DNA of 64,000 nt, from contig NZ_LBMJ01000001.1 of assembly GCF_001413925.1 (NCBI RefSeq), forward strand, positions 2,706,001 through 2,770,000. The letters run 5' to 3'. This document shows positions 25,191 through 50,297 of the stretch, piece by piece. The position numbers were made by a program, and so were the translations under genes. The stretch comes from Nonlabens sp. YIK11 (GTDB lineage Bacteria > Bacteroidota > Bacteroidia > Flavobacteriales > Flavobacteriaceae). The first letter of the stretch is position 1, and the number at the start of each line of letters is the position of its first letter. The notes beneath the pieces were generated by a model that did no database searches, was not told the origin of the DNA, and was given only the letters and a program-made list of their open reading frames with translations.

Positions 25191-27146
25191 TCAATCTTCT
25201 GAATTGGTTCGTATATCCAGAAACTCATAAACGCTATTTTCACTCTTAAATTCGGGTACCAAAACTTTTAGTTTACTAATCATAAAGATATCATTGGACT
25301 GTTCTGCAGCAGCAGCGATTTCAATGATAAGATTCATGACGTGCTCTAAAGATTGGGCATGGTCTATAGCTCTTAAGATCTTGGAGTGATGTGTGGGAAG
25401 CGTAGTGGCCTCGTTACTTAAAAGTTCCTCGTACAACTTCTCACCAGGTCGTAAACCAATCACTGAAATTTTGATATCTCTATCAGGTTCTAAACCAGAA
25501 AGTTTAATCATTTTCCTCGCCAGATCCATGATTCTTACGGGTTTCCCCATATCAAAGACAAAAACCTCGCCACCTTGTCCCATGGTTCCAGCCTGAAGAA
25601 CCAATTGACAAGCTTCTGGAATGGTCATAAAATATCTAATGATATTCTCATGAGTGACAGTAACGGGACCACCATTTTTGATTTGTTCCTTAAAATAAGG
25701 AATGACAGAGCCATTGGATCCAAGAACATTACCAAATCTGGTAGTGATGAACTTGGTGTCTCCTTCGCTTTCGTTCATCAACGATTGAACATAAATTTCA
25801 GCCGCCCTTTTGCTCGCTCCCATAACATTAGTAGGGTTCACAGCCTTGTCCGTACTTACCATAACAAATCGATCTACACGGTATTCAGCAGATAAATCAG
25901 CAAGATTTACCGTTCCTAAGATGTTGACTTGTACCGCCTCGGTTGGATTTCTCTCAATAAGTGGCACATGTTTATAGGCAGCGGCGTGAAACACAACTGC
26001 AATTGATTCACTCTTAAAAACTTCCTCAATTCTGGACTTTTTCCGAACATCCGCCAGAATAAATTCATAGGAAACCTCCGGATGATCTTTGCGTAACTCT
26101 AACTCTAAATTGTGTAATGGTGATTCCGCCTGATCTAACACCAATACTTTTTTAGGTTGATAATGACTGACCTGACGTACAATTTCACTACCTATTGATC
26201 CTGCACCACCGGTGATAAGAATGGTTTTATTATTGATGTAGTGATGAATCTGTGAATCATCTAAATTGATGGGATGGCGCTCTAATAGGTCCTCAATTTG
26301 AACTTCTTTAATATTCCCATTGACATCAGATTCATTTTCCCATTTGGTGATGGAAGGAGCATGATAGATTCTCAAGTTCTGTTCGAGAGCAAGGTCTACG
26401 AGTCTATTTTTTTCAGAGACGTTCATTTGGTCTCCTACCATAACCAACCCATTGATCTTATAAGGCGCAATGGTTTCAAAAAAGTGCTCGTCGTATTTAA
26501 AAATAGGAGCGCCTTGAATTTTGATTTTTTGATATCTTTTTTTAAAACTCACAAAACCACCGAGAACAAAATTTTGACGGTCAGATATCGATAGGGCTTC
26601 CCCAACCGCAATGGCATCATCATTGACACCTAAAATAAGCACGCGATGTTTTTTTCGCCCCATATTAGTCATATAGGAATATAAAGACTTTACCAATATG
26701 CGTAACATAAGCATACAAGCAAAGGTGATCACTGCATTGATAATCAAAAATGGGATCAAGAATATTTTAGATCCAGAAAACAAATAGTAACCGTAACTTA
26801 TGGCTGCCAGCGAGAAAGCACTGAAACCGCAAGAGAAAGCTATCTTAAAAATATCTACAAAAGTGCTATGACGTATAAGACCCGCATAGGTGCTAAATAG
26901 AAAAAAGGAAGAAAAATAAATCAGGGAAATAAATACGCACTCTTCCCATAGATTAAGCACATTGTAAAAGGACACATTTAGATTGGACGCAATGAAAAAC
27001 GTCATGAAAAATGAAAAAACAACGGTAGCTAAATCGATGATGAGCACCAGCCATCTTGGCAAATAATTTAGGTTGCGTATACGCACCCTATTATCCTCAT
27101 TCCAGAGAATTTGTCTAGCACGTATTTTAAAATACCTCCACTTCAC
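25191..27146 (-). CDS. PglF/CapD/FlaA1-type UDP-sugar 4,6-dehydratase, membrane-bound
   Basis: A long-form SDR with four N-terminal membrane segments (about 25-150), a CoA-binding-like Rossmann region (about 160-280) and a catalytic NAD domain with TGGAGSIGSE and TDKAVNPTNVMGASK, where M replaces the usual tyrosine of YxxxK as in PglF and WbpM. It should turn UDP-GlcNAc into the 4-keto-6-deoxy intermediate for bacillosamine- or QuiNAc4N-type sugars; the aminotransferase and acyltransferase that would follow are at 30953 and 35675. A GTG at 27206 would lengthen the frame but lies inside a terminator hairpin, so I place the start at the GTG at 27146 (651 residues); the exact start is uncertain. 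Confidence 0.88.
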   Translation of the reverse strand: MKWRYFKIRARQILWNEDNRVRIRNLNYLPRWLVLIIDLATVVFSFFMTFFIASNLNVSFYNVLNLWEECVFISLIYFSSFFLFSTYAGLIRHSTFVDIFKIAFSCGFSAFSLAAISYGYYLFSGSKIFLIPFLIINAVITFACMLMLRILVKSLYSYMTNMGRKKHRVLILGVNDDAIAVGEALSISDRQNFVLGGFVSFKKRYQKIKIQGAPIFKYDEHFFETIAPYKINGLVMVGDQMNVSEKNRLVDLALEQNLRIYHAPSITKWENESDVNGNIKEVQIEDLLERHPINLDDSQIHHYINNKTILITGGAGSIGSEIVRQVSHYQPKKVLVLDQAESPLHNLELELRKDHPEVSYEFILADVRKKSRIEEVFKSESIAVVFHAAAYKHVPLIERNPTEAVQVNILGTVNLADLSAEYRVDRFVMVSTDKAVNPTNVMGASKRAAEIYVQSLMNESEGDTKFITTRFGNVLGSNGSVIPYFKEQIKNGGPVTVTHENIIRYFMTIPEACQLVLQAGTMGQGGEVFVFDMGKPVRIMDLARKMIKLSGLEPDRDIKISVIGLRPGEKLYEELLSNEATTLPTHHSKILRAIDHAQSLEHVMNLIIEIAAAAEQSNDIFMISKLKVLVPEFKSENSVYEFLDIRTNSED

Positions 27147-27181
27147 GGCTGTCGCTTTTTGGCAATCTAATGCAAGATAAC

Positions 27182-27208
27182 AAAAAAGGTGGCGCACTGG
27201 CACCACCT
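27182..27208 (-). terminator. Rho-independent terminator after the small sorting-signal protein gene
   Basis: On the minus strand a 9-bp stem (AGGTGGTGC / GCGCCACCT, one G-U pair) with a 4-nt loop CAGT is followed by six U. It starts 23 bp past the stop codon at 27232 and separates the T9SS gene pair from the polysaccharide genes. Confidence 0.88.
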
Positions 27209-27231: not shown

Positions 27232-27414
27232 TTAATCTTCTCGTTGAGCCACCTTAAAGCCAATGACCAATGCAACTGCTGCCGCGATGGCAATTCCAGG
27301 AATTGGCGCCATGACTACATCGTCAACATCTTCCTCAAATGCTGGTGGTTGCGCGTACAAACTTCCAGCAAAAAGCATCGCTGTAATTAAAAGTAAAGTT
27401 TTTAAATTTTTCAT
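27232..27414 (-). CDS. Small secreted membrane peptide, PID-CTERM-like sorting signal
   Basis: The 60-residue protein has a signal peptide (residues 1-22, cleaved after YAQ), an acidic middle (EEDVDDVV), then PIPGIAIAAAVALVIGF and a short basic tail KVAQRED. The order Pro-Ile-x-Gly, hydrophobic span, basic end resembles the PID-CTERM/PEP-CTERM sorting signals that exosortases of the XrtF type act on in Flavobacteria; that identification is by pattern only, and no exosortase is in this window. It lies 7 bp after the T9SS gene on the same strand and ends at a strong terminator, so the two are probably co-transcribed. Confidence 0.65.
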   Translation of the reverse strand: MKNLKTLLLITAMLFAGSLYAQPPAFEEDVDDVVMAPIPGIAIAAAVALVIGFKVAQRED

Positions 27415-27421
27415 ACTAAAA

Positions 27422-30400: not shown

Positions 30401-30814
30401 GCCTCCGTCAATTCTATAATCAACATGAAAAAAATCTGCACCGTCCCAATCTTGATTAACACCATCATCATCCTCTGCAATCTTGATTGTAAAGTTCAAA
30501 TTATCCAATCCACTAATATTGATATTGGGAATGGTCACGGTCTGTGTACTACTTGGAATTGGGGTAACTCCAACACCATCGATATCTTGAGCTGCAAAAT
30601 AAAAACCGGATACATTAGAGAAATCAGCACCAATATCCGACCCATCGGTTCTTCTGAAATAATCGGTAGTCTCACCAGCAATATCGTCTAGACTCAATGA
30701 GTAACCTGAATTATTACTATCAAAGTCTAATTGGTAAACCGTGTTTTGAGCCATCAAAGATCCTGTTGTAAAAAACAGAATAATTAGATGAGAGTAAAGT
30801 AGTTTTTGTTTCAT
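27422..30814 (-). CDS. Large T9SS-secreted surface protein with lamin-tail domain
   Basis: The 1130-residue protein has a signal peptide (residues 1-22), a jellyroll-like region (about 25-215), a Fn3/Ig-like stretch (about 220-330), a lamin-tail (LTD) domain beginning LIITEVADPFDNANARFVEI (about 335-470), strand-rich repeats (500-900) and a C-terminal type A sorting domain (about 1055-1130; FPNPSSDD, NTLGQQV, NGLYLVNVY). It is exported by the type IX system and attached to or released from the surface. A palindromic repeat codes for AFAKA just before the sorting domain. A strong AGGAAGG sits 5 bp before the ATG, rare in this phylum. Confidence 0.92.
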   Translation of the reverse strand: MKQKLLYSHLIILFFTTGSLMAQNTVYQLDFDSNNSGYSLSLDDIAGETTDYFRRTDGSDIGADFSNVSGFYFAAQDIDGVGVTPIPSSTQTVTIPNINISGLDNLNFTIKIAEDDDGVNQDWDGADFFHVDYRIDGGAIQSLIWIEAETSGTNQLPRLDEDFDGIGEGIEVTDVFSEFSKAISGNGSTLELILTFKLDSGDEDIAIDDILVTSQNTAVNDSPSISNISQNPDSAVSSSDEVSISAVITDEDGLQSVVLDYDVAANDGSFDGSYDQSITMTNSSSTYMAIIPAQADGSNIYYQITATDLNSTPAVTSSAALSYQVRDPLPAPSLIITEVADPFDNANARFVEIYNNGSQPIDFDITPVYLARFANANTTSVDEQLIGVLGAGEYLVIAGSGTNYESAYGFSPDAISTGVSGNGDDTYALFSGSAGSGTLFDIYGAIGTDGTGEPWEYEDSRAVRNDLNVTPKTTWTASEWDIITANVNDMSPKRGEPDYVYAAGSWSPAAPEGLSTINDEIRVRDNVALTGDLEFRSLTVDENITFTVGANSITSSRNLFVNGTLDGQDGTLNFAGTLPQSTFGTGTLIIEDLIINNSGGVAFNNITNLEGILSLTNGELATNDLLTLKSFEGKAAVINEVVSGSISGNVTVEQFFPATTGRAFRFVSAPVNFDGSITANWQEGGSNAAGFGVQITGGDVAHGYDPSATNNPSLFRYDNGYTDPVSAWIPLSTANGDDLTSISPEAGDAYRLFIRGDRTTDLTSNTSAATATTLRATGTLVTGAYPATPIALAGPNLYSLIGNPYQSKVDVEQLLQNATNVVATEYYQWDSTTNNYVLYEFATPTTPMGSDISKNALPGQSFFVQSDATGNGSLQFQESYKTAGSDVATKNVDISNALTINLSTQEQIASGKANDIAIARFDEEFRTDFDPQDTQKFFGLSHSLAWEKNGAYYAVNRAAMPQDGDRFNLSVFVGTSGTYFFTVQSPEFEGLTTYFYDSLSDTYDLVTPGNPVVISKSIDLSNSSSTAGDRFQIVFRKSTLGMDDNFAFAKAISLFPNPSSDDAISISNLVAGKPVTFKIFNTLGQQVLTVEKTISGTIETINGLDNLANGLYLVNVYQNDLQTSIKLILN
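27661..27676. repeat. Palindromic repeat copy 6 (inside the T9SS gene)
   Basis: TCGCTTTCGCGAAAGC; on the coding strand it reads AFAKA in the linker directly before the C-terminal sorting domain. Confidence 0.93.
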
Positions 30815-30952: not shown

Positions 30953-32095
30953 TTAATTAAAAACACCTCTAATAACACTTGCGATGCGCGCTCTATCGTT
31001 GTTTGACAAATTGGAACCTGATGGTAAGCACAATCCTTTTTCAAAAAGCTCCTCGCATACTTTGCCTCCATAATATGGGTACTTGGAATAAAGAGGTTGC
31101 AGGTGCATAGGTTTCCATAATGGGCGTGATTCTATGTTTTCGGCTTCTAGTGCCAGTCGTAAATCCTCTCTGGTAATACCACCTGTGACAGCTGGATCAA
31201 CTAAAATCGCGCTAAGCCAATGGTTGGAATAATAATCAGCAGATTTTTCAACGAGAACTTCTACTCCATCGATAGCTGCAAACAATTCTTGATAAAATTG
31301 ATTCATAGCACGGCGCAGATGGACATGCTTATCTAGGACTTGCATCTGGCCACGACCTATACCGGCGCTAATATTACTCATACGGTAATTGTAACCTACC
31401 TCACTATGCTGGTAGTGTGGCGCTTGATCGCGCGCCTGTGTAGCTAGATGTACGGTTTTTGCCTTGTCCTCTTCACTGTGGCACACCATGGCACCGCCAC
31501 CGCTCGTTGTGATGATCTTGTTACCGTTAAAGCTCAGTATTCCAAAATCCCCAAACGTACCGCATTTACGGCCTTTATAGCTACTTCCCAGAGCCTCTGC
31601 ACTATCCTCGATGACTTTTATGGAGTTCGCTTTCGCGAAAGCGTGAATCTCATCCACCTTATAGGGCATACCATACAAGTGTACCGCGATAATGGCTTTG
31701 GGCTTTTTCCCCTTGGCGATGCGATCCTCAACGGCCTTTTCCAATGCCAGCGGACACATATTCCAGGTATCGCGCTCGCTATCCACTAGCACCGGTGTCG
31801 CGCCCAGATATAATATGGGGTTAGAACTGCCGCAAAAGGTAAAACTCTGGCAAATGACCTCATCACCAGCCGTAACTCCAGCCTGAATAAGCGCCAGATG
31901 GATCGCAGCAGTTCCAGAGCTAAGTGCGGCAACGTGGACGTTCTCGCCTTGATAACTTTCAAGATCCTTTTCAAACCCATTGACGTTGGGACCCAATGGA
32001 GCGACCCAGTTGGTATCAAAGGCCTCAGTCACAAAATCTCTCTCGGTGCCGCCCATGTGTGGTGAGGACAGCCATATTTTATCTTGCATGGTCAA
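30953..32095 (-). CDS. DegT/DnrJ-family UDP-4-keto-sugar aminotransferase (PglE-like)
   Basis: The 380-residue enzyme is a sugar aminotransferase: SSGTAAIHLA near 59-68 binds PLP phosphate, EDSAEALG (163-170) holds the ring aspartate, and Lys193 in FNGNKIITTSGGG is the Schiff base. The closest group in appearance is PglE-type enzymes, which aminate UDP-4-keto-6-deoxy-GlcNAc. It is the last gene of the acyl-sugar cluster and follows the PglC-type transferase by 22 bp. The palindromic repeat codes for AFAKA at 152-156. Confidence 0.9.
   Translation of the reverse strand: MTMQDKIWLSSPHMGGTERDFVTEAFDTNWVAPLGPNVNGFEKDLESYQGENVHVAALSSGTAAIHLALIQAGVTAGDEVICQSFTFCGSSNPILYLGATPVLVDSERDTWNMCPLALEKAVEDRIAKGKKPKAIIAVHLYGMPYKVDEIHAFAKANSIKVIEDSAEALGSSYKGRKCGTFGDFGILSFNGNKIITTSGGGAMVCHSEEDKAKTVHLATQARDQAPHYQHSEVGYNYRMSNISAGIGRGQMQVLDKHVHLRRAMNQFYQELFAAIDGVEVLVEKSADYYSNHWLSAILVDPAVTGGITREDLRLALEAENIESRPLWKPMHLQPLYSKYPYYGGKVCEELFEKGLCLPSGSNLSNNDRARIASVIRGVFN
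31628..31643. repeat. Palindromic repeat copy 7 (inside aminotransferase)
   Basis: CGCTTTCGCGAAAGCG; reads AFAKA on the coding strand, in the helix before VIEDSAEALG. Confidence 0.95.
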
Positions 32096-32107
32096 CTATT
32101 TAAAGGT

Positions 32108-32115
32108 CAAAGATA
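32108..32115 (-). promoter_or_regulatory. Candidate internal -7 box (TATCTTTG)
   Basis: TATCTTTG on the minus strand, 12 bp before the aminotransferase start, overlapping the 22-bp gap and the end of the previous gene. It could give that gene extra transcription; no -33 element is clear. Confidence 0.35.
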
Positions 32116-32117
32116 AG

Positions 32118-32654
32118 TTACTTGAATAGCGAAATAATCGTGAGCCCAATTATTTTGACGTCGTAGGTGAAGCTGCGATTTTCCAAATATTCTAGATTAA
32201 GCCTTACCTTGTCTGGAAAGATGACGGTATCGTTATATGCTTTAGGATCTTCTTGCTTTTTCAAAAGATCTTCCTCATTTCTATATTTTATGGCGGCCAG
32301 GCTGGTAAGTCCCGGTTTGAGGGCCAGCACTCGCCTATCGCTTCCTTTAAGTTGGTCGTAGTAACCAGGAACATCGGGTCGTGGGCCTACAAAGGTCATA
32401 TCACCTGTTAGTATATTGAATAGTTGTGGGAGCTCATCCAGTTTGGTCTTACGCAAGAATTTCCCGAATTGCGTTACCTGACCATTCTTCATGGTACGGA
32501 ATTTATAGATGGTAAAGGGTATACCGTGCTGGCCTATGCGGGTTTGGGTAAAAAGTTTAAGCCTTTTACCCATTATTAATTTGCAAAATAAAATGGGAAA
32601 TAACAGAAAAGTGATTAGTAAAAGAGATAGCACAAAATCAAAGATAGATTTCAT
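32118..32654 (-). CDS. Small phosphoglycosyl transferase (PglC/WcaJ-C type)
   Basis: About 178 residues: an N-terminal re-entrant membrane helix (about 5-26), IYKFRTM, the catalytic Asp-Glu pair in LDELPQLFN, VGPRPDVPGY and KPGLTSLAA. Monotopic enzymes of this family move a phospho-sugar from a UDP-sugar to undecaprenyl phosphate and start glycan assembly. The ATG at 32654 starts at the re-entrant helix; the upstream ATG at 32696 would overlap the KAS III gene and add a polar leader. It is one of two such enzymes in the locus (the other at 36325). Confidence 0.9.
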   Translation of the reverse strand: MKSIFDFVLSLLLITFLLFPILFCKLIMGKRLKLFTQTRIGQHGIPFTIYKFRTMKNGQVTQFGKFLRKTKLDELPQLFNILTGDMTFVGPRPDVPGYYDQLKGSDRRVLALKPGLTSLAAIKYRNEEDLLKKQEDPKAYNDTVIFPDKVRLNLEYLENRSFTYDVKIIGLTIISLFK

Positions 32655-32665
32655 ACACGAGTAAC

Positions 32666-33682
32666 TTACATTAATTCGATAGTGACTGCTCCCCAAGAGT
32701 AACCTACTCCAAATCCTGCGAGCAGAACTTTATCTCCTGCTGAAAAATCACCTTCTTCGTGTAACTCTTTGAGCGCGATCTGTATGGTGGAGGAAACAGT
32801 ATTGCCACAGAAATCCATTTTAATAGGAAAACGGTCTTGACTTACTTTTATCTTTTTTCTTAAATGATTGAGCATGTATGCATTTGCTTGATGAAAAACA
32901 AAATAAGTAATGTCTCCCAAATCAAAATTGTTTTTGCTCACATTATTGATTACTAATTCAGGAATATTTTGTGAAGTAAAGTTGAAAATGGCAGGACCAT
33001 TCATAAATAAGTCCGCATCAGAGGTAGTGTTTCCATAATCATCCTGTACTTCTGTACCAGATGCATCTGGTTGTCTCATAGCTCCTGCTTTGACAATAAG
33101 GTTTTCTGCTCCAGTTCCATCTGTTCCTAGATTGAACTCACCTATTTTTGCTGAAAGACCTACCGCTTCATCAGAAATCAAAACTGCGCTAGCGGCATCT
33201 CCAAAAATAGTACGATTTCCTTTATCTGAAGAATTTAGAAACTTACTATAAGTCTCACCACAAACTAATAACACATTCTTTGCGATACCTCCAGCAATAA
33301 GTCCTTTTGCAAGACTTAGGCCGTAGATAAAACCAGAACAGCCCAAGTTAAAGTCTAAAGCACCGCAGGTTTTTCTCAGTCCAAGTTTCTCCTGCATGAT
33401 ACAGGCACTGGTAGGTAAAAAGTAATCAGGACTTTGAGTACAAAACAATAAAAAGTCAATTGATTTTGGATCGATCTGATTTTTCTCAAAAAGAATAGCA
33501 GCCGCTTTGATTCCCATATCCATAGAAGTCTCATCATGAGCGGCAATATGTCTTTTATGTATTCCTATTTTCTTTGCGATTTTCTCTACAGACCATTCTG
33601 GAAATTCCGCAGCGAGATTTTCGTTGGAAAGAACTTTTTCTGGAAGGTAATAGTCGATATGGTTGATATAAGATTGTATCAT
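32666..33682 (-). CDS. 3-oxoacyl-ACP synthase III-like protein (KAS III, first copy)
   Basis: The 338-residue thiolase-fold enzyme has the full KAS III triad: Cys115 in NLGCSGF, His264 in FHQAN and Asn294 in CGNTVSS. KAS III enzymes condense an acyl-CoA or acyl-ACP with malonyl-ACP. A second, diverged copy, an SDR and an ACP lie beside it, so it is almost certainly not the housekeeping FabH but part of a dedicated acyl pathway. It overlaps the SDR gene by 4 bp and precedes the PglC-type gene by 11 bp. Confidence 0.92.
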   Translation of the reverse strand: MIQSYINHIDYYLPEKVLSNENLAAEFPEWSVEKIAKKIGIHKRHIAAHDETSMDMGIKAAAILFEKNQIDPKSIDFLLFCTQSPDYFLPTSACIMQEKLGLRKTCGALDFNLGCSGFIYGLSLAKGLIAGGIAKNVLLVCGETYSKFLNSSDKGNRTIFGDAASAVLISDEAVGLSAKIGEFNLGTDGTGAENLIVKAGAMRQPDASGTEVQDDYGNTTSDADLFMNGPAIFNFTSQNIPELVINNVSKNNFDLGDITYFVFHQANAYMLNHLRKKIKVSQDRFPIKMDFCGNTVSSTIQIALKELHEEGDFSAGDKVLLAGFGVGYSWGAVTIELM

Positions 33683-34428
33683 TTTAAAGTGAGTCCTCCA
33701 TCTAATTTTAAATCAGTTCCAGTCATCCATTTTGAAGCTTTAGATAATAAAAATATTACAGAAAACGCAACATCTTCAGGCTTACCATAATCTCCTAAAG
33801 GATAATTTTTCTTATCCAATTCTATATCTTCTTTACTGCTATCAATAGATGAAATCAATTCAGTTTCTATCATAGCAGGCATGATAGTATTTACTCTTAT
33901 ACCTTTAGAAGCCAATTCGAGGGCCATAGTTTTTGCGATTCCACACAAAGCACTTTTACTGGCAGAATAGGCACTGTTACCTATATAAGTAACGACTGGT
34001 CCTGAAATAGAGGAAAGAAATACGATTGATGATTCTTTATTGATTTTCTTTTTCTTTAATAGGTGCTTAGTAAGCATAACTGGGGCAACTAAATTCGTAT
34101 CTAAAATATGTCGGAAAGATTCTTCTTTAAGAAAACTAAAAAGTTGTGATTTTACGATTCCAGCAGAATGTACGAGGCCGTCGATTTCTATTGAGGAATT
34201 ACAGAACTCTAAAACAAGCTTGTCATCATTTAGATCTAAAGAATGGTAGCTATGGCCATCACCTACTAGTAAAGATAGTGTCTGTTTAAGTCTCTCGATA
34301 TTTCTACCTAGAATTAAAACTTTCGCCCCAAAATTTGAGCAAGCAATAGCAATCTCCCTACCTATGCCACTACTAGCTCCTGTTACTAGAATAGTCTTAT
34401 TCTCAAGGGAAAAAATGGTATTATCCAT
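33679..34428 (-). CDS. Short-chain dehydrogenase/reductase, FabG-like ketoreductase
   Basis: The 249-residue classical SDR has TGASSGIG at 16-23, Ser139/140, Tyr154 and Lys158 (YSASK), and a C-terminus ending in GTDLKLDGG like FabG. It would reduce 3-oxoacyl-ACP to 3-hydroxyacyl-ACP. Its overlaps with both KAS III genes (8 bp upstream, 4 bp downstream) mark tight co-expression. No dehydratase or enoyl reductase lies nearby, so hydroxyl groups made here would be kept. Confidence 0.9.
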   Translation of the reverse strand: MDNTIFSLENKTILVTGASSGIGREIAIACSNFGAKVLILGRNIERLKQTLSLLVGDGHSYHSLDLNDDKLVLEFCNSSIEIDGLVHSAGIVKSQLFSFLKEESFRHILDTNLVAPVMLTKHLLKKKKINKESSIVFLSSISGPVVTYIGNSAYSASKSALCGIAKTMALELASKGIRVNTIMPAMIETELISSIDSSKEDIELDKKNYPLGDYGKPEDVAFSVIFLLSKASKWMTGTDLKLDGGLTLK

Positions 34429-35434
34429 TGTAAGTGCTGTTATTTAGAACACAGTTGGCATCTAATTCCAAAATTGCACTTGCCCAAGACAACCCAACTC
34501 CAAAACCAGACATAAACAATTTGGTTTTTTTTGAAATATTCTCTAATTGACTCGTGATAGTTAAAGGTATAGTAGCACATGACGTGTTTGCATAATCGAA
34601 CAATGAATAAGGAACCTGTTCTACTTCAGCCTTTAACTTTTTTCTGATTTTTTCATTCATAAACTTATTTGCTTGATGAAAAATAAAATAATCAAAATCA
34701 GAGGTTTCCACTGACTGCTCTTCCATAAACTGTTTTATTGCTTTAGGAACCTTTGTTATTCCAAAGGAAAAAACATCCATCCCATTAAGGTATAGAGTTT
34801 TTTGAAAACCATCACTCAATTGTTTAAATCCGCCATATTCTACTTTAATAGCTTCACAACCAGAACCGTCACTATTAAGATCAAAAATTATATCACTAGA
34901 ATTAGACTTACCTAATAGAGTGGCGCTACCCGCGTCTCCAAATAAAGGATAAGTACTAGAGTCTGTAGGGTCACACAATTTTGAAATGGTGTCTCCTACT
35001 AATAAAAGTGCATTAGCATTTTTGTTAATTGAACTAGCTAGTAATGAAGAAATAATAGAGAGCCCGTATACATATCCGGAACACCCCATGTTTACATCAA
35101 ATGCAGCTACAGTAGTTTTTAACCCCAACCTATTTTGTAGAATTGTTGCACTGGCAGGCAAAATATAATCAGGAGTCTGAGAAACAAATACAAGAAAATC
35201 TATATTGTCAAGGTCACTATTATTTTCTTCTAATAGTTTCTTAGCAGCATCATAACACAAGTCTGCTGCAGTCTCATTAACAGCAATGTGTCGATACCTA
35301 ATTCCTGTACTTTCCAGAACTTTCTCTCCTTGCTTTTCTATTATATATTTATCATTAAGGTTATCCATTCTTTTTGATGGAGTAGAGGTGTATATTGCCT
35401 TAATTGATATATTAGAAATGCGAGAAGAAGCCAT
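34421..35434 (-). CDS. 3-oxoacyl-ACP synthase III-like protein (KAS III, second copy)
   Basis: The 337-residue enzyme keeps the triad Cys118 (NMGCSGY), His253 (FHQAN) and Asn283 (YANTSCA), but is clearly different in sequence from the first copy: the two share only the family motifs and fold. Two KAS III enzymes with different acyl preferences could carry out two successive elongations. The gene is AT-rich compared with the housekeeping region. It is followed by the SDR gene with an 8-bp overlap and preceded by the ACP gene by 6 bp. Confidence 0.92.
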   Translation of the reverse strand: MASSRISNISIKAIYTSTPSKRMDNLNDKYIIEKQGEKVLESTGIRYRHIAVNETAADLCYDAAKKLLEENNSDLDNIDFLVFVSQTPDYILPASATILQNRLGLKTTVAAFDVNMGCSGYVYGLSIISSLLASSINKNANALLLVGDTISKLCDPTDSSTYPLFGDAGSATLLGKSNSSDIIFDLNSDGSGCEAIKVEYGGFKQLSDGFQKTLYLNGMDVFSFGITKVPKAIKQFMEEQSVETSDFDYFIFHQANKFMNEKIRKKLKAEVEQVPYSLFDYANTSCATIPLTITSQLENISKKTKLFMSGFGVGLSWASAILELDANCVLNNSTYNG

Positions 35435-35440
35435 ATTGCT

Positions 35441-35659
35441 TTATGCGTTGACAATTTTAAAGAGATCTTCAATGGTATCTGCTTTTTTTATATCGTCTCC
35501 ATTAATTGTAGTTCCATATTCTTCATCCATCATCGCAATAATTGATAGTGCGATCATTGAGTCCCATTCATCTAAATCTTTAAATTGAGTATCATTTTGA
35601 AACTCACTTCTATCAGTTTCATCAAACTGCTCAGCAAAATTATTTATAAAATCTTCCAT
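35441..35659 (-). CDS. Acyl carrier protein, pathway-dedicated
   Basis: A 72-residue, strongly acidic ACP with the phosphopantetheine attachment serine at Ser34 in DEWDSMIAL (the family's DSL is DSM here). Helices fit the four-helix ACP fold. It differs from the housekeeping AcpP pattern (ADSLDTVELVMA), so it is a specialised carrier for the chain built by the adjoining KAS III and SDR enzymes. Confidence 0.9.
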   Translation of the reverse strand: MEDFINNFAEQFDETDRSEFQNDTQFKDLDEWDSMIALSIIAMMDEEYGTTINGDDIKKADTIEDLFKIVNA

Positions 35660-35674
35660 TATTTATATATTTAT

Positions 35675-36319
35675 TCAAAGGTCGAGTCTTTTGGCAGGAA
35701 TACCAAAGTATTTTCTATGGTTCTTAATACTTTTAGTAAGCAACGTATTTGCCAGTATAGAATTGTGGTTACCTATGGATTTTCCCTGAACAATACTAGA
35801 ACCCATTGAAAAGGTATTGTAGTCACCTAAAGTTACATCTCCAGAAATCTGGGTTCTAGGCATGAAGCAATTGTAATCTCCTATAATTGTATCATGACCT
35901 ACTGCGCACATGGAGTTGAAAAAATTAAAATTTCCTAACTTAATGTGACAGGATAATAAGGTACCAGTCGCAATGGTGTTTCCTATCCCTATTACTGTCC
36001 CGTATTCTAGTTGAGCATTGGGATGAATTAGATTAGGATATTTAAAGTTTCGCTTTCGCGAAAACGAATCAAAAATAGCACTAACGATCTCACGATTTGC
36101 CATTCCAAAAGTTATAGAGGTTCCGTCTGGTAATTTATCAATTAAATCCGAAACCTTACCGATACAATTCACCCCATTGATGACTTCATATTCCTCCACA
36201 AATGCATCATCATAAAAACCAATAACTTCGTACGTAGCATTTTTGTTATTAATAGCGTCAATGAGTGTCCATAACTCTTTACCTAAACCTCCTGATCCTA
36301 CTATTGCTATTTTTTCCAT
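35675..36319 (-). CDS. PglD/NeuD-type sugar N-acyltransferase
   Basis: The 214-residue protein has the two-part PglD/NeuD layout: an N-terminal Rossmann-like UDP-sugar-binding part (IVGSGGLGKE) and a C-terminal left-handed beta-helix of hexapeptide repeats, with the catalytic histidine in CAVGHDTIIGDY. Family members acetylate the 4-amino group of UDP-amino sugars with acetyl-CoA. Lying next to an ACP and two KAS III genes, this one may use acyl-ACP instead. A palindrome copy with one mismatch codes for SFSRKR between the two domains. Confidence 0.9.
   Translation of the reverse strand: MEKIAIVGSGGLGKELWTLIDAINNKNATYEVIGFYDDAFVEEYEVINGVNCIGKVSDLIDKLPDGTSITFGMANREIVSAIFDSFSRKRNFKYPNLIHPNAQLEYGTVIGIGNTIATGTLLSCHIKLGNFNFFNSMCAVGHDTIIGDYNCFMPRTQISGDVTLGDYNTFSMGSSIVQGKSIGNHNSILANTLLTKSIKNHRKYFGIPAKRLDL
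36051..36066. repeat. Palindromic repeat copy 8 (one mismatch)
   Basis: CGCTTTCGCGAAAACG; a single change from the perfect palindrome. Reads SFSRKR in the acyltransferase. Confidence 0.85.
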
Positions 36320-36324: not shown

Positions 36325-36930
36325 CTATTTACTGCCTTTAAATGCAGACATGGTTGCATTTGCATCTGCGTTGATATCATCAGATTTAAACACCTTTTTG
36401 AAGGTAAGCAGGACGATTTTAAAGTCTAGTAGAAATGACTGATTCTCTACGTACCAAGCATCGTACTCAAATTTTTGCTCCCATGAAATGGCATTTCTAC
36501 CATTGACCTGTGCCCAACCCGTAATACCTGGTTTTACTTGATGACGCATTGCCTGACGTTCATTGTAAAGTTCCAGATAGGCAGGTAATAAGGGTCGTGG
36601 TCCCACAAAACTTAAATCTCCTTTCAACACATTAAATATTTGGGGCAGCTCGTCCATCGATGTGGCTCTCACAAACTTTCCTACAGGCGTGAGTCGCTGA
36701 TCATCAGGCAACAGGTTACCGTTAGCGTCTTTCTTGTCGGTCATGGTTTTGAACTTAATCACCTTAAACAGCTTACCATTTTTTCCCGGGCGTACCTGTG
36801 TAAAGAATAGAGAACCTCTATTATTGATGGCTAATAACAATCCAAAGATCAACAATACTGGACTTGCGGCAATTACGGCCATTAAGGCTGATATAAAATC
36901 TAAGGATGGTTTGATGATGGTTTTATACAT
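36325..36930 (-). CDS. Phosphoglycosyl transferase (PglC-type), second in locus
   Basis: The 201-residue monotopic enzyme has an N-terminal re-entrant helix (about 10-32), VIKFKTM, the catalytic DE of MDELPQIFN, VGPRPLLPAY and the PGITGWAQVNGRN signature. It likely loads the first sugar phosphate of the repeat unit on undecaprenyl phosphate. Its neighbour WbuB is, in known L-FucNAc loci, the enzyme that adds FucNAc to this first sugar. It differs from the PglC-type protein at 32118, which lacks the GWAQVNGRN form. Confidence 0.92.
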   Translation of the reverse strand: MYKTIIKPSLDFISALMAVIAASPVLLIFGLLLAINNRGSLFFTQVRPGKNGKLFKVIKFKTMTDKKDANGNLLPDDQRLTPVGKFVRATSMDELPQIFNVLKGDLSFVGPRPLLPAYLELYNERQAMRHQVKPGITGWAQVNGRNAISWEQKFEYDAWYVENQSFLLDFKIVLLTFKKVFKSDDINADANATMSAFKGSK

Positions 36931-36935: not shown

Positions 36936-38138
36936 CTAGGAAAATTGTTGTTCGATGATCAAAGCCGACTTATCCGCAGTGTATTCTTTCACTAAAAGAT
37001 CAATCGTACTCTCAGACATCTTTTGGTAGATTTCTTCTGAAGAGATGATAGATCGTATGGCTTCTTCGAAAGCTTCTGTATCTCCCGCGAGAACAGATCT
37101 ACCACAATTATATTGTTCAATTATGCTCCCAATATCCGTGTTAGGATCTGTTGCAGCAACTGTAGGAAAACCCATTTCAAGATAAGATAGTAATCTTGAT
37201 GGGAAATTTGGAATCCGAAAATTTTTATCAAGAAAAATCAATCCTATATCGCAACTTTGTAATAAGGTATCGTAATCACGTTTTGGCAAGTAATTTAATA
37301 GTAATGCATTCATTGGTTTTCTTTTATCAAACCAAGATTTCAATTTGTAATATTCCGAGCCATTACCTACAATCAAATAAAACGTATTTTCTACATTTAC
37401 TTGTTCCAAAACGTCAATCAAAAAATCAATCCCTTGAGGTATACCAAGGTTACCGCCATATACCAAAATTCTATCGTTGAGTGGCAAGCCGTACTTTTTT
37501 CTAATTCTATTTTTTTGGTCGTAATCAAGCTCATTGAATACAGGTTCAATTGAGTTGGGATTTACATGAACATCTGATGGATCGAGATAAGTATTGTTAT
37601 TTAAAAGAAATTCAACATTTGCTGGGGACATACACCCTATTTTATCAGATATTAAATAAAGCTGCTTTTCAATATTCATAAAGTATCTATGCAAAAAACC
37701 ATTCTCATTCATCATTTTCATATCAATGGCATTTTGAGGGAAGATGTCCTTTAATAACAAATACGTTTTACAACGCATCTTGTTTTTCAGCCAAACGACT
37801 ACTGAGTAAAGTGTGATTGGTGGTGTAGAATAGAGAATCAGATCAAAATGTTCGGTTGGAATGTATCTTTTAATCGCACGCTTAAATTGTGTAGCAATCG
37901 TCAACATTCCCAATCCTTTTTCTATAAAACCAGTCTTTTGAATATTTAGAGTTTTAACATGAATACATCTAAATGAATCAAAAACGGTTATACCTCCAGG
38001 ATCAGTATCTCGTCGCTCCACAGGTGTGATCGCTGTAACTTGATGGCCATTTCTAATAAGCGCGCGTAAAAGGTCGGTATAGATCCCACGATCATCAATC
38101 GACTTAACTTTTACTAAAGAAAGAAATAGGATTCTCAA
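36936..38138 (-). CDS. WbuB-like glycosyltransferase (probable L-FucNAc transferase)
   Basis: The 400-residue GT4-type enzyme has a GT-B fold. The N-domain shows YTDLLRALIRNGHQVTAITP, and the C-domain has YGGNLGIPQGIDFLIDVL and the E-x7-E-like region FPSRLLSYLEMGFPTVA. It matches the WbuB group, which in E. coli O26-like loci follows fnlABC and transfers L-FucNAc. That fits its place directly after the FnlC gene. The gene is 5 bp from the PglC-type gene. Confidence 0.88.
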   Translation of the reverse strand: MRILFLSLVKVKSIDDRGIYTDLLRALIRNGHQVTAITPVERRDTDPGGITVFDSFRCIHVKTLNIQKTGFIEKGLGMLTIATQFKRAIKRYIPTEHFDLILYSTPPITLYSVVVWLKNKMRCKTYLLLKDIFPQNAIDMKMMNENGFLHRYFMNIEKQLYLISDKIGCMSPANVEFLLNNNTYLDPSDVHVNPNSIEPVFNELDYDQKNRIRKKYGLPLNDRILVYGGNLGIPQGIDFLIDVLEQVNVENTFYLIVGNGSEYYKLKSWFDKRKPMNALLLNYLPKRDYDTLLQSCDIGLIFLDKNFRIPNFPSRLLSYLEMGFPTVAATDPNTDIGSIIEQYNCGRSVLAGDTEAFEEAIRSIISSEEIYQKMSESTIDLLVKEYTADKSALIIEQQFS

Positions 38139-38145: not shown

Positions 38146-39285
38146 CTAATTGTATTTTTTCCAAACCACCTTATTCACATAATCCGTATAACTAAGGATG
38201 ATTCTTACGATTTTTTCACTCACATTAGGCATGCTGTAATCAATAACCTGACGCATACTTCGCACTTCATCGGTTTGTTGCAATTGCACATGTTCTAGAG
38301 CCTGTAAGATACGTTCCTTATCAAGACCTACCATCATGACGCTCGCCTCTTCCATTGCTTCCGGTCTTTCGTGAGCTTCTCGTATATTGAGTGCCTTAAA
38401 ATTTAGAATACTGGACTCTTCAGAAATTGTACCGCTATCAGATAATACAACAAAGGCATTTTGTTGCAAACTATTATAATCGTTGAACCCCAAAGGCTTC
38501 AAAAACTGTATGTTTTGATGTAATTTTAACTCACTAGAGTTGATCTTATTTCTGGTTCTAGGATGGGTTGAAAATATGATTGGATAATCATAATTATCTG
38601 CTATATGATTTAGGGTTTCAAATAAATTATTAAAGTTTCTATCATTACTAATGTTTTCTTCACGATGCGCAGATACCACAAAATACTTACCCTTTTCTAA
38701 GCCTTGATTTTCTAGAACTTTACTCTTTCTTATCTCTGCCATATAATGGTTCAACACCTCAAACATGGGCGATCCAGTTTTAATGATGCGGTCTGCAGGC
38801 AAGCCTTCACGCAAGAGGTATTCCCTTGCGATATCAGAATATGTTAGATTAACGTCAGAAGTGTGATCAACGATCTTTCGATTCGTTTCTTCTGGAACAC
38901 GCTGATCGAAGCAGCGGTTGCCTGCTTCCATATGGAAAATTGGAATTTTTCGCTTTTTAGCTGGTATGGCACACAAACAACTGTTAGTATCTCCCAGCAC
39001 TAAAAACGCCTCTGGCTGCAATTTTTCCAAGAGCACATCTATTTTAATCATGATATTCCCTACCGTTTCTGCCGCATTTTTTCCTGCCGCCTCTAGAAAA
39101 TGATCTGGTTTCCTTAACCCCAAATCATCAAAGAATATCTGGTTGAGTTCATAATCATAATTCTGTCCTGTATGAATCAAAATATGCTCAATGGCTGGAG
39201 ATTTATCCAATGCATCAAGAACTCTTGAAAGTCTTATGATTTCAGGTCGTGTTCCAACAACCGTAGCTACCTTTAATCTTTTCAT
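38146..39285 (-). CDS. fnlC: UDP-N-acetylglucosamine 2-epimerase family, FnlC-type
   Basis: The 379-residue non-hydrolysing 2-epimerase has GTRPEIIRLSRV, HTGQNYD, GDTNSCL and the SDSGTISEE motif. In the FnlABC (WbjBCD, CapEFG) pathway this third enzyme epimerises C2 to give UDP-L-FucNAc. The match to FnlC rather than WecB rests on its place beside fnlB and fnlA. Confidence 0.92.
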   Translation of the reverse strand: MKRLKVATVVGTRPEIIRLSRVLDALDKSPAIEHILIHTGQNYDYELNQIFFDDLGLRKPDHFLEAAGKNAAETVGNIMIKIDVLLEKLQPEAFLVLGDTNSCLCAIPAKKRKIPIFHMEAGNRCFDQRVPEETNRKIVDHTSDVNLTYSDIAREYLLREGLPADRIIKTGSPMFEVLNHYMAEIRKSKVLENQGLEKGKYFVVSAHREENISNDRNFNNLFETLNHIADNYDYPIIFSTHPRTRNKINSSELKLHQNIQFLKPLGFNDYNSLQQNAFVVLSDSGTISEESSILNFKALNIREAHERPEAMEEASVMMVGLDKERILQALEHVQLQQTDEVRSMRQVIDYSMPNVSEKIVRIILSYTDYVNKVVWKKYN

Positions 39286-39288
39286 TTT

Positions 39289-40410
39289 TTAAACCGTTAC
39301 AAAGTACGTGTCTGGATCCTGCGGATTATAAAATTCGTTGATCCAAAACATTGTATATAATTCTTCTTCTCCTACGTTTTTGATATTGTGGGTATACCAG
39401 ATGGGCATATCCACGTAGGATGGGTTTTGTCCATCCAATTTAAAGCTTAATACCTCATCGCTATCCACCCTTCTTAATTCAATCAGTGCCTTTCCTTTTA
39501 TAACAGAGAATCGTTCAATTTTACGAGTATGAAAATGATTGCCTCTAGTTACACCCGGAACGGTCGTGGAAAAAGAAACTTGACCATGCTGTTCCAGCCT
39601 TATAATCTCCACAAAAGTACCACGTTCATCACTGTGTTGTACGTAACGAACCGGGAAATGATCCTTATGATTGATGTAGCTTCTAAAGGTATTGAACATA
39701 TTGCGTTGAAAATCAGAATCTAGCGATGGCATGATTCCACTTGACGTGTAGTTCTGTTGAAATCTATGAAACAGTTCCAAGATTTCAGTCACCTTGTAAG
39801 TACCGTCTTCAGGAATCTCAACGGTCACCTGTCTAGGAGCTTTAATATGAATAGCCTCCAACATTTTCAAAACTAAATTCTGGACATAGATTAAAGGAAC
39901 CTCGTTATCTACCTTAATCTCTGGATAACCACCGTTGTTTAACAAATGGCAAAATGTCGCGACAAATGAATTGTAAAAGGGCTTGCCAAATGGCCCATAG
40001 ACATTAGGAATGATAAATCCGGTAAATGATGCTCCAGATCCTGCGGCCCATTGATGCAATAATTCTCTTGCTATTTTCTTTGAATCGCCATATTTATTGT
40101 CACTGCTCTCTTGTAGTGATGACGAAAAAATTATGTGGGGCTTTACCTTTGATCGCTCCAGCGATTCCACGAGTTTTTTTGAAAGCGTGATGTTAGTTTC
40201 ATATATAATTTGTGGATCATCATGGCGGTTGATGGCCGCAAGGTGATAGATAATATCACAACTAGCCACAAACTCATCCAACAATCCGTCTTGATCAAAA
40301 AACGACCTTTCAAATGGAATGATCTCATATTTTTCAGGTTCCAGCCTTAGGTTATTGCTCAAATGGGTACCTAAAAAACCTGTTTGACCTGTAATTCCAA
40401 TCTTCATCAT
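39289..40410 (-). CDS. fnlB: FnlB/CapF-type bifunctional reductase-epimerase
   Basis: The 373-residue protein has an N-terminal SDR (ITGQTGFLGTHL; lacking some of the classical catalytic residues) and a C-terminal cupin (RGNHFHTRKIERFSVIKGKA), the CapF arrangement. It epimerises C3 and reduces C4 to give UDP-6-deoxy-L-talose-NAc in UDP-L-FucNAc synthesis. It lies between fnlC and a small cupin gene. Confidence 0.93.
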   Translation of the reverse strand: MMKIGITGQTGFLGTHLSNNLRLEPEKYEIIPFERSFFDQDGLLDEFVASCDIIYHLAAINRHDDPQIIYETNITLSKKLVESLERSKVKPHIIFSSSLQESSDNKYGDSKKIARELLHQWAAGSGASFTGFIIPNVYGPFGKPFYNSFVATFCHLLNNGGYPEIKVDNEVPLIYVQNLVLKMLEAIHIKAPRQVTVEIPEDGTYKVTEILELFHRFQQNYTSSGIMPSLDSDFQRNMFNTFRSYINHKDHFPVRYVQHSDERGTFVEIIRLEQHGQVSFSTTVPGVTRGNHFHTRKIERFSVIKGKALIELRRVDSDEVLSFKLDGQNPSYVDMPIWYTHNIKNVGEEELYTMFWINEFYNPQDPDTYFVTV

Positions 40411-40425
40411 AAATATATTCGGATT

Positions 40426-40842
40426 TTAAAATAGATTAAAATGTCCAAGGTCAAACCTATATTCATCTTCAATCTCTCCCATTTTATAGTCTGCAAAAAT
40501 AAGTAGTTTATTTTCAAGGGTATTAGCCTTAATGCAACTCACATATCCTGCGGGAATCCACAACGTTTGTGAAATGTCACCTGTCAATACAAATGAGGAA
40601 TGATAGTCCATCTTTACATCGAATGAATCCAGATGTACAAGGTCCACCTTAAAGCTACCTTGAATGGCAGTAAACCAGCGCTGCTCGATACGATGTCCTT
40701 GCCAGCCTCTTCTCAGGTCTGTATTTTCATTATGAACGCAATACATACGTTTGACAGCAGTTAAATCCAGATCATTGTTGAAAGTGATTGAACCACGATG
40801 ATCTCTAGCGATTCCTCCATTGATTAACCGTGGTTTTATCAT
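40426..40842 (-). CDS. Small cupin protein (WxcM/FdtA-like), within fnl operon
   Basis: A 138-residue single-domain cupin. The core HRIEQRWFTAIQGSFKVDLV and LWIPAGYVSCI look like sugar 3,4-ketoisomerase or RmlC-type cupins (WxcM, FdtA). Small cupins of this sort sit between fnlA and fnlB in other Bacteroidota O-antigen loci as far as I recall; the exact reaction is not established. It may help a 4-keto sugar intermediate isomerise. Confidence 0.75.
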   Translation of the reverse strand: MIKPRLINGGIARDHRGSITFNNDLDLTAVKRMYCVHNENTDLRRGWQGHRIEQRWFTAIQGSFKVDLVHLDSFDVKMDYHSSFVLTGDISQTLWIPAGYVSCIKANTLENKLLIFADYKMGEIEDEYRFDLGHFNLF

Positions 40843-40846
40843 AAGG

Positions 40847-41866
40847 CTAGTTACGCTTTCGCGAAAGCGAACTTTTGATAAGTGGCAATGCTCCTATCAA
40901 CTTCTTCATACCCTCCACATCAAGTTGCTCTGTGTTATGCGAGTGATAGTCATCTATTGAAGCAATATCTTCCTTTCCTTCAGAGAAATATTGGGAATAG
41001 TTCAGATCGCGATTATCTGCCGGAATTCGGTAGAAATCGCCCATATCTTCCGCCTTGAGCATTTCTTCTCGTGTACATAGAGTTTCGTACAGTTTCTCGC
41101 CATGGCGAGTTCCTATAATCTTTACTTTATTGTCTGCCTCAAATAACTCTTTCATGGCTTGCACTAGATCTGCAATAGTTCCTGCGGGTGCCTTGTTTAC
41201 AAAAAGATCTCCAGAATTACCGTTCTCAAAGGCAAACAACACCAATTCTACAGCATCATCCAATGACATTAAAAAACGAGTCATGTTGGGATCTGTCACG
41301 GTAATTTCTTGATCATTGAGGATTTGGTCCATAAAAAGCGGTATAACAGAACCTCGACTTGCCATGACGTTTCCATACCGGGTAAGACATACAGTGGTAT
41401 CTGACAAATTACGTGAGGCAGCTACGGCAACCTTTTCCATCAACGCCTTAGATATTCCCATTGCATTGATGGGATAGGCAGCTTTGTCAGTGCTTAGACA
41501 TATTACCTTTTTAACCGCACAAGCTGCCGCGGCATCTATGACATTTTGGGTACCCAGGACGTTAGTTCTCGTAGCTTCCATAGGGAAAAACTCACATGAG
41601 GGAACCTGCTTAAGCGCGGCAGCATGGAAAACATAATCGACACCACGCATGGCTTTGAGTATACTGCTATAATCTCGAACGTCGCCTATGTAGAACTTGA
41701 GCTTGGGGTGGTTATAGGACTTGCGCATATCGTGCTGCTTCTTCTCATCTCTGGAGAATATCCTAATTTCTTTGAAATGATCGGTATTGAGGAAGCGGTT
41801 GAGCACTGCATTCCCAAATGAGCCCGTGCCACCAGTTATAAGCAAGGTTTGATTATTTATCTTCAT
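40847..41866 (-). CDS. fnlA: UDP-GlcNAc 4,6-dehydratase/5-epimerase, FnlA/CapE type
   Basis: The 339-residue soluble SDR has the Rossmann motif TGGTGSFG and the SDR catalytic region TDKAAYPINAMGISK, with methionine in place of tyrosine as in FnlA/CapE/WbjB. It inverts C5 while dehydrating UDP-GlcNAc, the first step to UDP-L-FucNAc. The last codons are made by a palindrome copy (SLSRKRN then stop), so the C-terminal tail is repeat-derived and not conserved. Confidence 0.92.
   Translation of the reverse strand: MKINNQTLLITGGTGSFGNAVLNRFLNTDHFKEIRIFSRDEKKQHDMRKSYNHPKLKFYIGDVRDYSSILKAMRGVDYVFHAAALKQVPSCEFFPMEATRTNVLGTQNVIDAAAACAVKKVICLSTDKAAYPINAMGISKALMEKVAVAASRNLSDTTVCLTRYGNVMASRGSVIPLFMDQILNDQEITVTDPNMTRFLMSLDDAVELVLFAFENGNSGDLFVNKAPAGTIADLVQAMKELFEADNKVKIIGTRHGEKLYETLCTREEMLKAEDMGDFYRIPADNRDLNYSQYFSEGKEDIASIDDYHSHNTEQLDVEGMKKLIGALPLIKSSLSRKRN
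40854..40869. repeat. Palindromic repeat copy 9 (end of fnlA)
   Basis: CGCTTTCGCGAAAGCG followed by AACT; codes for the C-terminal SLSRKR of fnlA just before its stop. Confidence 0.95.
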
Positions 41867-49533: not shown

Positions 49534-50297
49534 TATCTCCGATCCTGTACTGTCTCACGTTTAAGTGAAATACTTAAATAGATTTTTTCACCAGATACTG
49601 GATCCAAGAAATAGGCATTTGAATAACTTCCATGACTCAGAGCCCTTAAGCGATCGATAGCCTCGCCGAAAGTAACTTTAGCTTCTAAATCAATTTTTAA
49701 TAAATTATTAAAATCCTTTTTGAGGTAAAGCCTACCCTCATTCTCAGGAGATATGGTTGAATAACTGCCGTCTATAATTGCAGAGAAATTATTTTTGAAT
49801 AAATCCATTTCAGCTTCAACAATTCGATCATATAGAGATAACGATGTATCATCAGCTCGCTTCTCTACCAGTTTTCTCGCTATTATTCCTCCATGGTCAA
49901 TCTTATCATCGATTTCATGAATTGTTGCCCCTACTTCGGTATCGTTTATAATGGCAAATACTTGTGGATACCAACCTCTGTTGATAGGGTTATAACCGGG
50001 ATGAATATTTATACATCGGATTCCCTTTACCAATTCAGGTGGAAACAATTGTTTGCAATGAACGGAGATGACTAAGTCATAAGTTTGTAATATCTTTTGA
50101 ACATCTCTGCTATGTCGTAAATCATATATAAATATGTCAACACCTAAAAAATCAGTAAATTCGGATTTCGAAGAAAATGGACTTGTCCCAAAATGGACTT
50201 GTAATTCACTATTGCCATCATGATCCTGAATAAAGTGTAAAATGTTTCTGCAGATATTCTTGTTGTCTGAAATAAACAAAACGTTTTTCCTTTGCAT
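49533..50297 (-). CDS. dTDP-4-amino-4,6-dideoxyglucose formyltransferase (VioF-like)
   Basis: About 254 residues. The formyltransferase core shows NIHPGYNP with Asn97 and His99 and Asp134 in KIDHGG, the catalytic triad of N10-formyl-tetrahydrofolate-dependent sugar N-formyltransferases. It would formylate the 4-amino group made by the transaminase upstream (50343). The ATG at 50297 (MQRKNVLFISDN) is preferred to a TTG at 50339. Confidence 0.88.
   Translation of the reverse strand: MQRKNVLFISDNKNICRNILHFIQDHDGNSELQVHFGTSPFSSKSEFTDFLGVDIFIYDLRHSRDVQKILQTYDLVISVHCKQLFPPELVKGIRCINIHPGYNPINRGWYPQVFAIINDTEVGATIHEIDDKIDHGGIIARKLVEKRADDTSLSLYDRIVEAEMDLFKNNFSAIIDGSYSTISPENEGRLYLKKDFNNLLKIDLEAKVTFGEAIDRLRALSHGSYSNAYFLDPVSGEKIYLSISLKRETVQDRR

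Follow-up and report, generated by a model that had tools for sequence, protein, structure and literature searches.

A putative acyl carrier protein-dependent route to a 3,5-dihydroxyhexanoyl amino sugar in Nonlabens sp. YIK11, and a composition rule for related ketoacyl synthase loci

The window analysed here is a stretch of 64,000 nucleotides from Nonlabens sp. YIK11 (GCF_001413925.1, contig NZ_LBMJ01000001.1, positions 2,706,001 to 2,770,000). It contains genes for a dedicated acyl carrier protein (ACP), two different type III ketoacyl-ACP synthases (KAS1 and KAS2), a ketoreductase (KR) and a PglD-type acyltransferase. There is a good likelihood that this cluster, within a surface-polysaccharide locus, makes UDP-Qui2NAc4N bearing a 3,5-dihydroxyhexanoyl group, with KAS1 priming the chain, KAS2 extending it once and the PglD-type enzyme transferring it from the ACP. 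The interpretation given in a preliminary description of this DNA is probably right; the idea had already been published as a prediction (Cisar, Bush and Wiens 2019, PMC6519341). What is added here is a composition rule, which suggests which KAS primes and which extends. If the rule is right, gene content allows the N-acyl group to be predicted. N-acyl groups on amino sugars shape serotype; the lipopolysaccharides of Flavobacterium psychrophilum strains differing in R-group genes are antigenically non-identical (PMC6519341). Among open-licence papers, judged by titles and the openings of abstracts, no biochemical test of this wfp-type pathway and no account of the rule was found.

The genes of the cluster are as follows.

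25191..27206, minus strand: PglF-type UDP-GlcNAc 4,6-dehydratase, membrane form (Polysacc_synt_2, 397.7 bits; the GTG start is probably too long)
30953..32095, minus strand: PglE-type aminotransferase, predicted to form the 4-amino group of UDP-Qui2NAc4N (DegT_DnrJ_EryC1, 307 bits)
32118..32696, minus strand: second, divergent monotopic phosphoglycosyl transferase (PGT; Bac_transf, 157.9 bits)
32666..33682, minus strand: KAS1, KAS III, proposed primer using acetyl-CoA and malonyl-ACP (ACP_syn_III/ACP_syn_III_C; Lys38 at the FabH Arg36 position)
33679..34428, minus strand: KR, FabG-like short-chain dehydrogenase/reductase, proposed 3-keto reductase after each condensation (adh_short_C2, 165.5 bits)
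34421..35434, minus strand: KAS2, KAS III, proposed extender acting on 3-hydroxybutyryl-ACP (ACP_syn_III/ACP_syn_III_C; Ser42 at the FabH Arg36 position)
35441..35659, minus strand: dedicated ACP of 72 aa, with Ser34 in an EWDS motif (PP-binding, 27.2 bits, cut-off 20.8)
35675..36319, minus strand: PglD/NeuD-type hexapeptide N-acyltransferase, proposed user of acyl-ACP (PglD_N, PF17836, 35.5 bits, cut-off 23.4; Hexapep, PF00132, over its cut-off)
36325..36930, minus strand: PglC-type PGT, proposed first membrane step (PDB PglC 8g1n, 247 bits over residues 1-200 of 201)
36936..38138, minus strand: WbuB/WfpA-like glycosyltransferase, likely an L-FucNAc transferase (WcaI family, 89 bits, below cut-off)
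38146..41866, minus strand: fnlC, fnlB, a 138-aa gene and fnlA, for UDP-L-FucNAc synthesis (wecB-type epimerase 258.6 bits, cut-off 210; WbcJ 256 and FnlA 547 bits, both below curated cut-offs)

In the proposed pathway, PglF and the PglE-type aminotransferase would produce UDP-Qui2NAc4N. KAS1 would join acetyl-CoA to malonyl on the dedicated ACP, and KR would reduce the product to 3-hydroxybutyryl-ACP. KAS2 would extend this once with malonyl-ACP, after which the same KR would reduce again to yield 3,5-dihydroxyhexanoyl-ACP; one primer, one extender and one KR would thus account for a C6 chain hydroxylated at positions 3 and 5. The PglD-type enzyme would acylate the 4-amino group of the sugar with this ACP-borne chain, and the PglC-type enzyme would put the sugar phosphate on a lipid carrier, with extension by L-FucNAc next. 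Malonyl loading and phosphopantetheine would be provided by FabD-type and phosphopantetheinyl transferase genes outside the locus; the host genome has one match to each. This route of two condensations, two ketoreductions and PglD-type transfer, proposed in the preliminary description, agrees with the gene content and with the published, predicted wfp reading.

Genes are transcribed in the order fnlA, 138-aa gene, fnlB, fnlC, WbuB-like transferase, PglC-type, PglD-type, ACP, KAS2, KR and KAS1, followed by the divergent PGT, the PglE-type gene, a type IX secretion system (T9SS) cargo gene, a 60-aa gene, PglF, an export-protein gene and a Wzc-like gene. The region further upstream encodes a Wzy polymerase, a Wzx-type flippase and glycosyltransferases and also has genes for other nucleotide sugars; this content identifies a Wzx/Wzy-type surface polysaccharide locus, predicted to make an O-antigen or capsule. 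The seven open reading frames described earlier between 30953 and 36319 have the correct coordinates and are on the minus strand. Of the overlaps claimed between them, those of KAS1 with KR (4 nt) and of KR with KAS2 (8 nt) stand; the 32118 gene probably overlaps KAS1 only because a TTG start was assigned to it, and a likely ATG start at 32654 abolishes the overlap. The dehydratase assignment at 25191-27206 is borne out by its family score, and the reported fnlABC and WbuB genes were matched, several of them with scores below curated cut-offs.

A fatty-acid dehydratase and an enoyl reductase had been described as absent; neither turned up in the scanned proteins of the region 22009-60185, so the absence applies to the part of the open reading frames there that was scanned. 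The best Pfam family of KR is titled 'Enoyl-(Acyl carrier protein) reductase'; this is a family title and no evidence for such an activity. The host genome is nearly complete (3.26 Mb, 2 contigs). A KAS2 search of 59 genomes (the window's own, 22 of its genus and 36 others) gave three matches at E <= 1e-60: the window's own genome, one of the same genus (G010) and one other (G039). The ACP/KAS module therefore looks accessory.

By sequence, KAS1 and KAS2 belong to KAS III but are not ordinary FabH. As described earlier, their triads are intact (C115/H264/N294 in KAS1; C118/H253/N283 in KAS2). Both score below the cut-off of NCBIfam fabH (TIGR00747), and neither has the FabH coenzyme A (CoA)-contact set Trp32/Arg36/Arg151, in which Arg151 is presumably also a CoA contact. 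Trp32 is replaced by Lys in both enzymes. At the Arg36 and Arg151 positions, KAS1 has Lys and KAS2 has Ser. Trp32, Arg36, Phe212 and Asn246 of FabH have been named as key for CoA binding (PMC9040583).

Related loci were surveyed with profile hidden Markov models (HMMs) for ACP, KAS, KR, PglD, PGT, DegT, PglF, GNAT, AMP ligase and Rieske oxygenase; those used for locus mapping were trained on the discovery loci themselves. A PglD locus was defined as a PglD HMM match that has both an ACP and a KAS no more than 7 kb away on its strand. Scanning a species-genome collection with aligned KAS2 relatives confirmed 544 places, of which the best 80 comprised 31 PglD-type, 32 GNAT-type and 17 other loci. 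Of 396 genomes sampled from the window's class, Bacteroidia, 68 had a match at E <= 1e-80 including its own (67 of 395 good-quality genomes). The 67 others gave one locus each: 10 PglD-type, 52 GNAT-type and 5 other.

The discovery set (L008-L162 minus L090-L095) held 42 PglD loci including L008, or 41 once L066, a duplicate of L017, was dropped. Held-out loci were drawn from searches of one genus and two families, and the prediction was fixed before retrieval; 74 were fetched, 49 were PglD-type, and 46 remained after L163, L181 and L184 were dropped as discovery duplicates. The combined set has 87 non-duplicate loci and excludes the window itself. The records behind six discovery PglD loci carry names outside Bacteroidota: Photobacterium (L070, L085), Massilia (L086) and metagenome-assembled genomes named Treponema (L053), Methylotenera (L057) and Tissierellia (L087). 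The order PglC-PglD-ACP-KAS2-KR-KAS1-aminotransferase-PglF recurs in L010 and L070; compared with these, the window has an extra PGT and the T9SS cargo gene inserted.

These loci suggest a rule for the PglD type: a locus without an AMP ligase has exactly one KAS with Lys at position 36 in FabH numbering (a Lys36 KAS), and a locus with a ligase has none. Exactly one Lys36 KAS is found in 61 of 65 ligase-less loci, although each of the 61 holds one to four KAS; 21 of 22 ligase loci have none. Overall, 82/87 loci fit (39/41 discovery, 43/46 held-out). In the held-out set, where the outcome was predicted beforehand, exactly one Lys36 KAS is present in 30/32 ligase-less loci and none in 13/14 with a ligase. 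Among the 42 discovery loci before duplicate removal, all eight ligase loci are without a Lys/Arg-36 KAS and 32/34 ligase-less loci have one. Where a single KAS occurs without a ligase, it carries Lys36 in 21/23 loci. A scan of 560 columns by 25 residue groups ranked Lys at position 36 first in the discovery loci (40/42; next column 39) and in the combined set (82; next column 75). The window also fits, with Lys in KAS1, Ser in KAS2 and no AMP ligase among its scanned proteins. On this basis, the Lys36 enzyme would be the primer and the remaining KAS would be extenders.

Five loci depart from the rule. In L192 the single KAS is without Lys36 and there is no ligase, but the locus encodes an FkbH-domain protein (287 bits, cut-off 147), of a kind that loads ACPs with glyceryl-type groups; this looks like a third way to prime. 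At L192:7402-9374 this gene sits beside one with a below-cut-off match to methylmalonyl-CoA epimerase, and a glyceryl starter is possible. L222 and L035 are on contigs of 6.3 and 6.4 kb, which may be cut. In L067 the ligase is on the opposite strand. L189 is composite, with three KAS and two ACPs, and combines a ligase with a Lys36 KAS.

Several points weigh against the rule and the pathway read from it. The exceptions L035, L067, L222 and L189 are explained only in part. In the held-out set alone, an aromatic residue at position 206 (44/46) scores above Lys at position 36 (43/46). The loci are related: they form 42 clusters at 70% KAS identity (Fisher p 2e-6) and only 15 at 60%, where a single mixed cluster accounts for 47 loci (p 0.007). 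All sampled loci came from KAS2-type queries, so KAS1-only loci are under-sampled; one KAS1 search matched 4/397 genomes (E <= 1e-85), including that of the window, and those loci are not counted. The rule was also tried for all ACP/KAS operons and rejected, as it fails in the GNAT family: a basic-36 KAS occurs in 34/84 GNAT-type loci, or 38/88 after loci were added and duplicates removed. Arg36 and Arg248 of FabH (numbering of that study) are likely ACP-binding (PMC9040583), and Lys36 need not mean CoA. Trp32 is missing from both window enzymes and is replaced in both of their clades. Finally, a composition rule differs from an enzyme assay: the genes, their catalytic residues, their repeated occurrence together and the rule itself are observed, and each reaction, the substrates and the roles of primer and extender are inferred from them.

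In a tree of 248 KAS III sequences, KAS1 falls in a clade of 84 members (K1; support 0.999) and KAS2 in one of 159 (K2; support 0.918); the five other KAS III of the host genome lie outside both. In PglD loci, position 36 is Lys in 25/25 K1 enzymes, window KAS1 included; in K2 it is Ser, Thr or Ala in 32/53 and Lys in eight, which form one clade (support 0.983) and occur alone or alongside other K2. Position 151 is basic in 25/25 K1 and 47/53 K2, and was dropped as a primer marker. Trp is not among the commonest residues of either clade at position 32, and loss of Trp32 was dropped as an extender marker. A KAS III named Flavobacterium psychrophilum (P0307) is in K1, has Lys at position 36 and is 47% identical to KAS1 and 35% to KAS2; we infer that it is WfpC. 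The WfpE sequence of F. psychrophilum was not found for an orthology comparison with KAS2.

With the roles swapped, KAS2 would prime and KAS1 extend, and the end product would be unchanged. KAS2-type enzymes are the sole KAS in 9/42 discovery loci, so some can serve alone, and most K2 keep the basic residue at position 151. However, the five discovery K2 that are the sole KAS of a ligase-less locus (L083, L138, L146, L148, L149) carry Lys36, all within the eight-member subclade, and window KAS2 has Ser at both 36 and 151. KAS1-type enzymes stand alone too (L159, L161); a fixed assignment, with KAS2 always primer and KAS1 always extender, was dropped for this reason. A swap in the window is unlikely.

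Equally unlikely is that the PglD-type enzyme uses a CoA thioester derived from the ACP product, as CoA-dependent sugar N-acyltransferases do. Its best solved relative by sequence is VioB (7txp, 59 bits), followed by pilin-glycosylation, perosamine and bacillosamine N-acetyltransferases, all of which we take to be acetyl-CoA enzymes. PglD and ACP genes are immediate neighbours in only 17/87 loci, which also counts against transfer from the ACP. Against a CoA thioester, the module genes scanned included none for a thioesterase or an ACP-to-CoA transferase, and PglD lies within 7 kb of the ACP, although by definition of the set. Matches to LpxA/LpxD are weaker (about 25-32 bits) and do not decide. 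The protein scores 129.1 bits against TIGR03570, below the cut-off of 160.8, and is thus a divergent relative of the curated NeuD/PglD family. Its AlphaFold2 model has a mean pLDDT of 75 with poor last residues and was not used for any claim.

Catalytic residues are conserved across the module proteins, counted with the window's own. The carrier Ser (S34 in the window) is present in 101/101 ACPs, and Trp32, two residues ahead of it, in 93/101. N112/S140/Y154/K158 of KR are kept in 102-106 of 106 proteins. His142 of the PglD-type enzyme, presumably the catalytic His, is present in 97/106. By simple count, the Trp motif occurs in 64/100 ACPs of PglD loci and 5/92 of GNAT loci; most GNAT ACPs are without the searched motif altogether.

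A single condensation would give 3-hydroxybutanoyl, leaving the second KAS idle or in another pathway. Several marine glycans contain 3-hydroxybutanoyl amino sugars (PMC3210612), and 37/87 loci have one KAS. Both window triads are intact, however, two KAS are present in 47/87 loci, and F. psychrophilum, with two KAS genes, makes a C6 group; a single condensation is slightly less credible than either alternative above. A non-glycan product made by a KAS pair that sits in a sugar locus by chance is highly improbable: the operon does include a T9SS cargo gene that has no obvious connection with the making of sugars, related GNAT-type operons have no PglD and 4/87 loci have no PGT, DegT or PglF in view, but at least two of these three are present in 47/87 loci, and KAS1, KR and KAS2 of the window are joined by gene overlaps.

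Beyond the window, there is a nearly even chance that bacterial surface-glycan loci have in common a minimal, programmable type II polyketide line, with the N-acyl group predictable from its list of parts. Each line would have one priming device (a Lys36 KAS III, an AMP ligase or an FkbH loader, seen once); each further KAS would be an acyl-ACP extender adding two carbons, and one KR would give the hydroxyls, to which a Rieske oxygenase may add another. If so, genome sequences could be used to predict how long the chains of many uncharacterised antigens are and how they are hydroxylated. It would be unusual for KAS III enzymes to serve as dedicated extenders of acyl-ACP.

A Rieske oxygenase gene is present in 24/87 PglD-type loci (L023, L189, L012 and others), and a possible role is an extra hydroxyl on the acyl group; in L023 and L189 it occurs together with fnlABC and a WbuB-like gene. 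A second, commoner operon type (52/67 sampled loci; L013, L016, L028, L096-L137 and others) has the order KAS1-ACP-KAS2-KR-GT2-GNAT without PglD. Its short form, ACP-KAS2-GNAT, has neither KR nor KAS1.

The 32118 gene had been labelled PglC-type; the PglC of the locus is the next gene beyond the seven, at 36325-36930. The 32118 product reaches at most 75.6 bits with any PDB chain (71-74 bits to PglC, 71-76 to PglC and WbaP together) and is thus the more distant relative. A gene 50-52% identical to it sits between PglD and DegT in L205 and L206, and two PGT hits are found in 8/87 loci. The best solved structures for the PglE-type aminotransferase, 1o61 and 4ztc, were deposited as aminotransferases; we take both to be C. 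jejuni PglE. It scores 368 bits against LegC TIGR04181, below the cut-off of 420. DegT proteins 62-71% identical to it lie beside the module in L010, L042, L044, L078, L089, L192, L200 and L205, and the window PglF is 46-50% identical to PglF in L010, L023 and L205. In L023 and L189, a counterpart of the WbuB/WfpA-like gene, 50-51% identical, is the first match upstream of PglC; by analogy with PMC6519341, L-FucNAc is the likely sugar of its donor. Between the aminotransferase and PglF (27232-30814) are the cargo gene, for a 1130-aa protein with a T9SS type A sorting domain, and that for the 60-aa protein, which has a signal-peptide-like start. The region 49533-53993 encodes a dTDP-4-amino-4,6-dideoxyglucose formyltransferase (283 bits, cut-off 238), a DegT aminotransferase, rmlA, rmlC and rmlB, and suggests a formylated 4-amino sugar in the repeat unit.

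Parts of the proposed pathway resemble several known systems. FabH of type II fatty acid synthesis shares its family and Cys-His-Asn triad with the window KAS; Trp32 is lost in both of these, and Arg36 is kept as Lys only in the proposed primer. LpxA and LpxD are hexapeptide-repeat sugar acyltransferases that act on acyl-ACP, with longer chains and a different sugar; their sequence similarity to the PglD-type enzyme is weak. Campylobacter PglF, PglE, PglD and PglC (UDP-diNAc-bacillosamine) share the sugar route and the first membrane step. Campylobacter PglD adds acetyl (PMC6519341), whereas the ACP line of the window is expected to supply a longer acyl group.

Vibrio cholerae O3 carries 3,5-dihydroxyhexanoyl on the same sugar, Qui2NAc4N (PMC3210612). 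In F. psychrophilum the group is 3,5-dihydroxyhexanoyl on Qui2NAc4N of the O-antigen, as the preliminary description had stated (PMC6519341), and its configuration is (3S,5S). There, wfpC and wfpE are assigned to ketoacyl-ACP synthases, wfpD to ACP, wfpF to a reductase and wfpB to PglC, while wfpG is a PglD-type acyltransferase for which the ACP is the predicted source of the group (PMC6519341). The wfp genes with pglE and pglF share with the window a dedicated ACP, two different KAS, one KR, PglD-type, PglC, PglE and PglF genes, fnl genes and a WbuB-like transferase, as well as a predicted type II fatty-acid-like synthesis of 3,5-dihydroxyhexanoyl. The window has the ACP, two KAS, KR and PglD homologue clustered, with PglC, PglE and PglF homologues in the locus; by its parts, it is a wfp-type pathway. 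Gene order differs: PglC-PglD-ACP-KAS2-KR-KAS1 in the window, compared with PglC-KAS-ACP-KAS-KR-PglD as suggested by the wfp letters. The latter order is seen in L205 and L206, with Lys36 in the first KAS and Thr in the second. The other sugars of the window also differ from those of F. psychrophilum, with dTDP-Qui4N formyltransferase, TviB/TviC-like and GDP-fucose-type genes.

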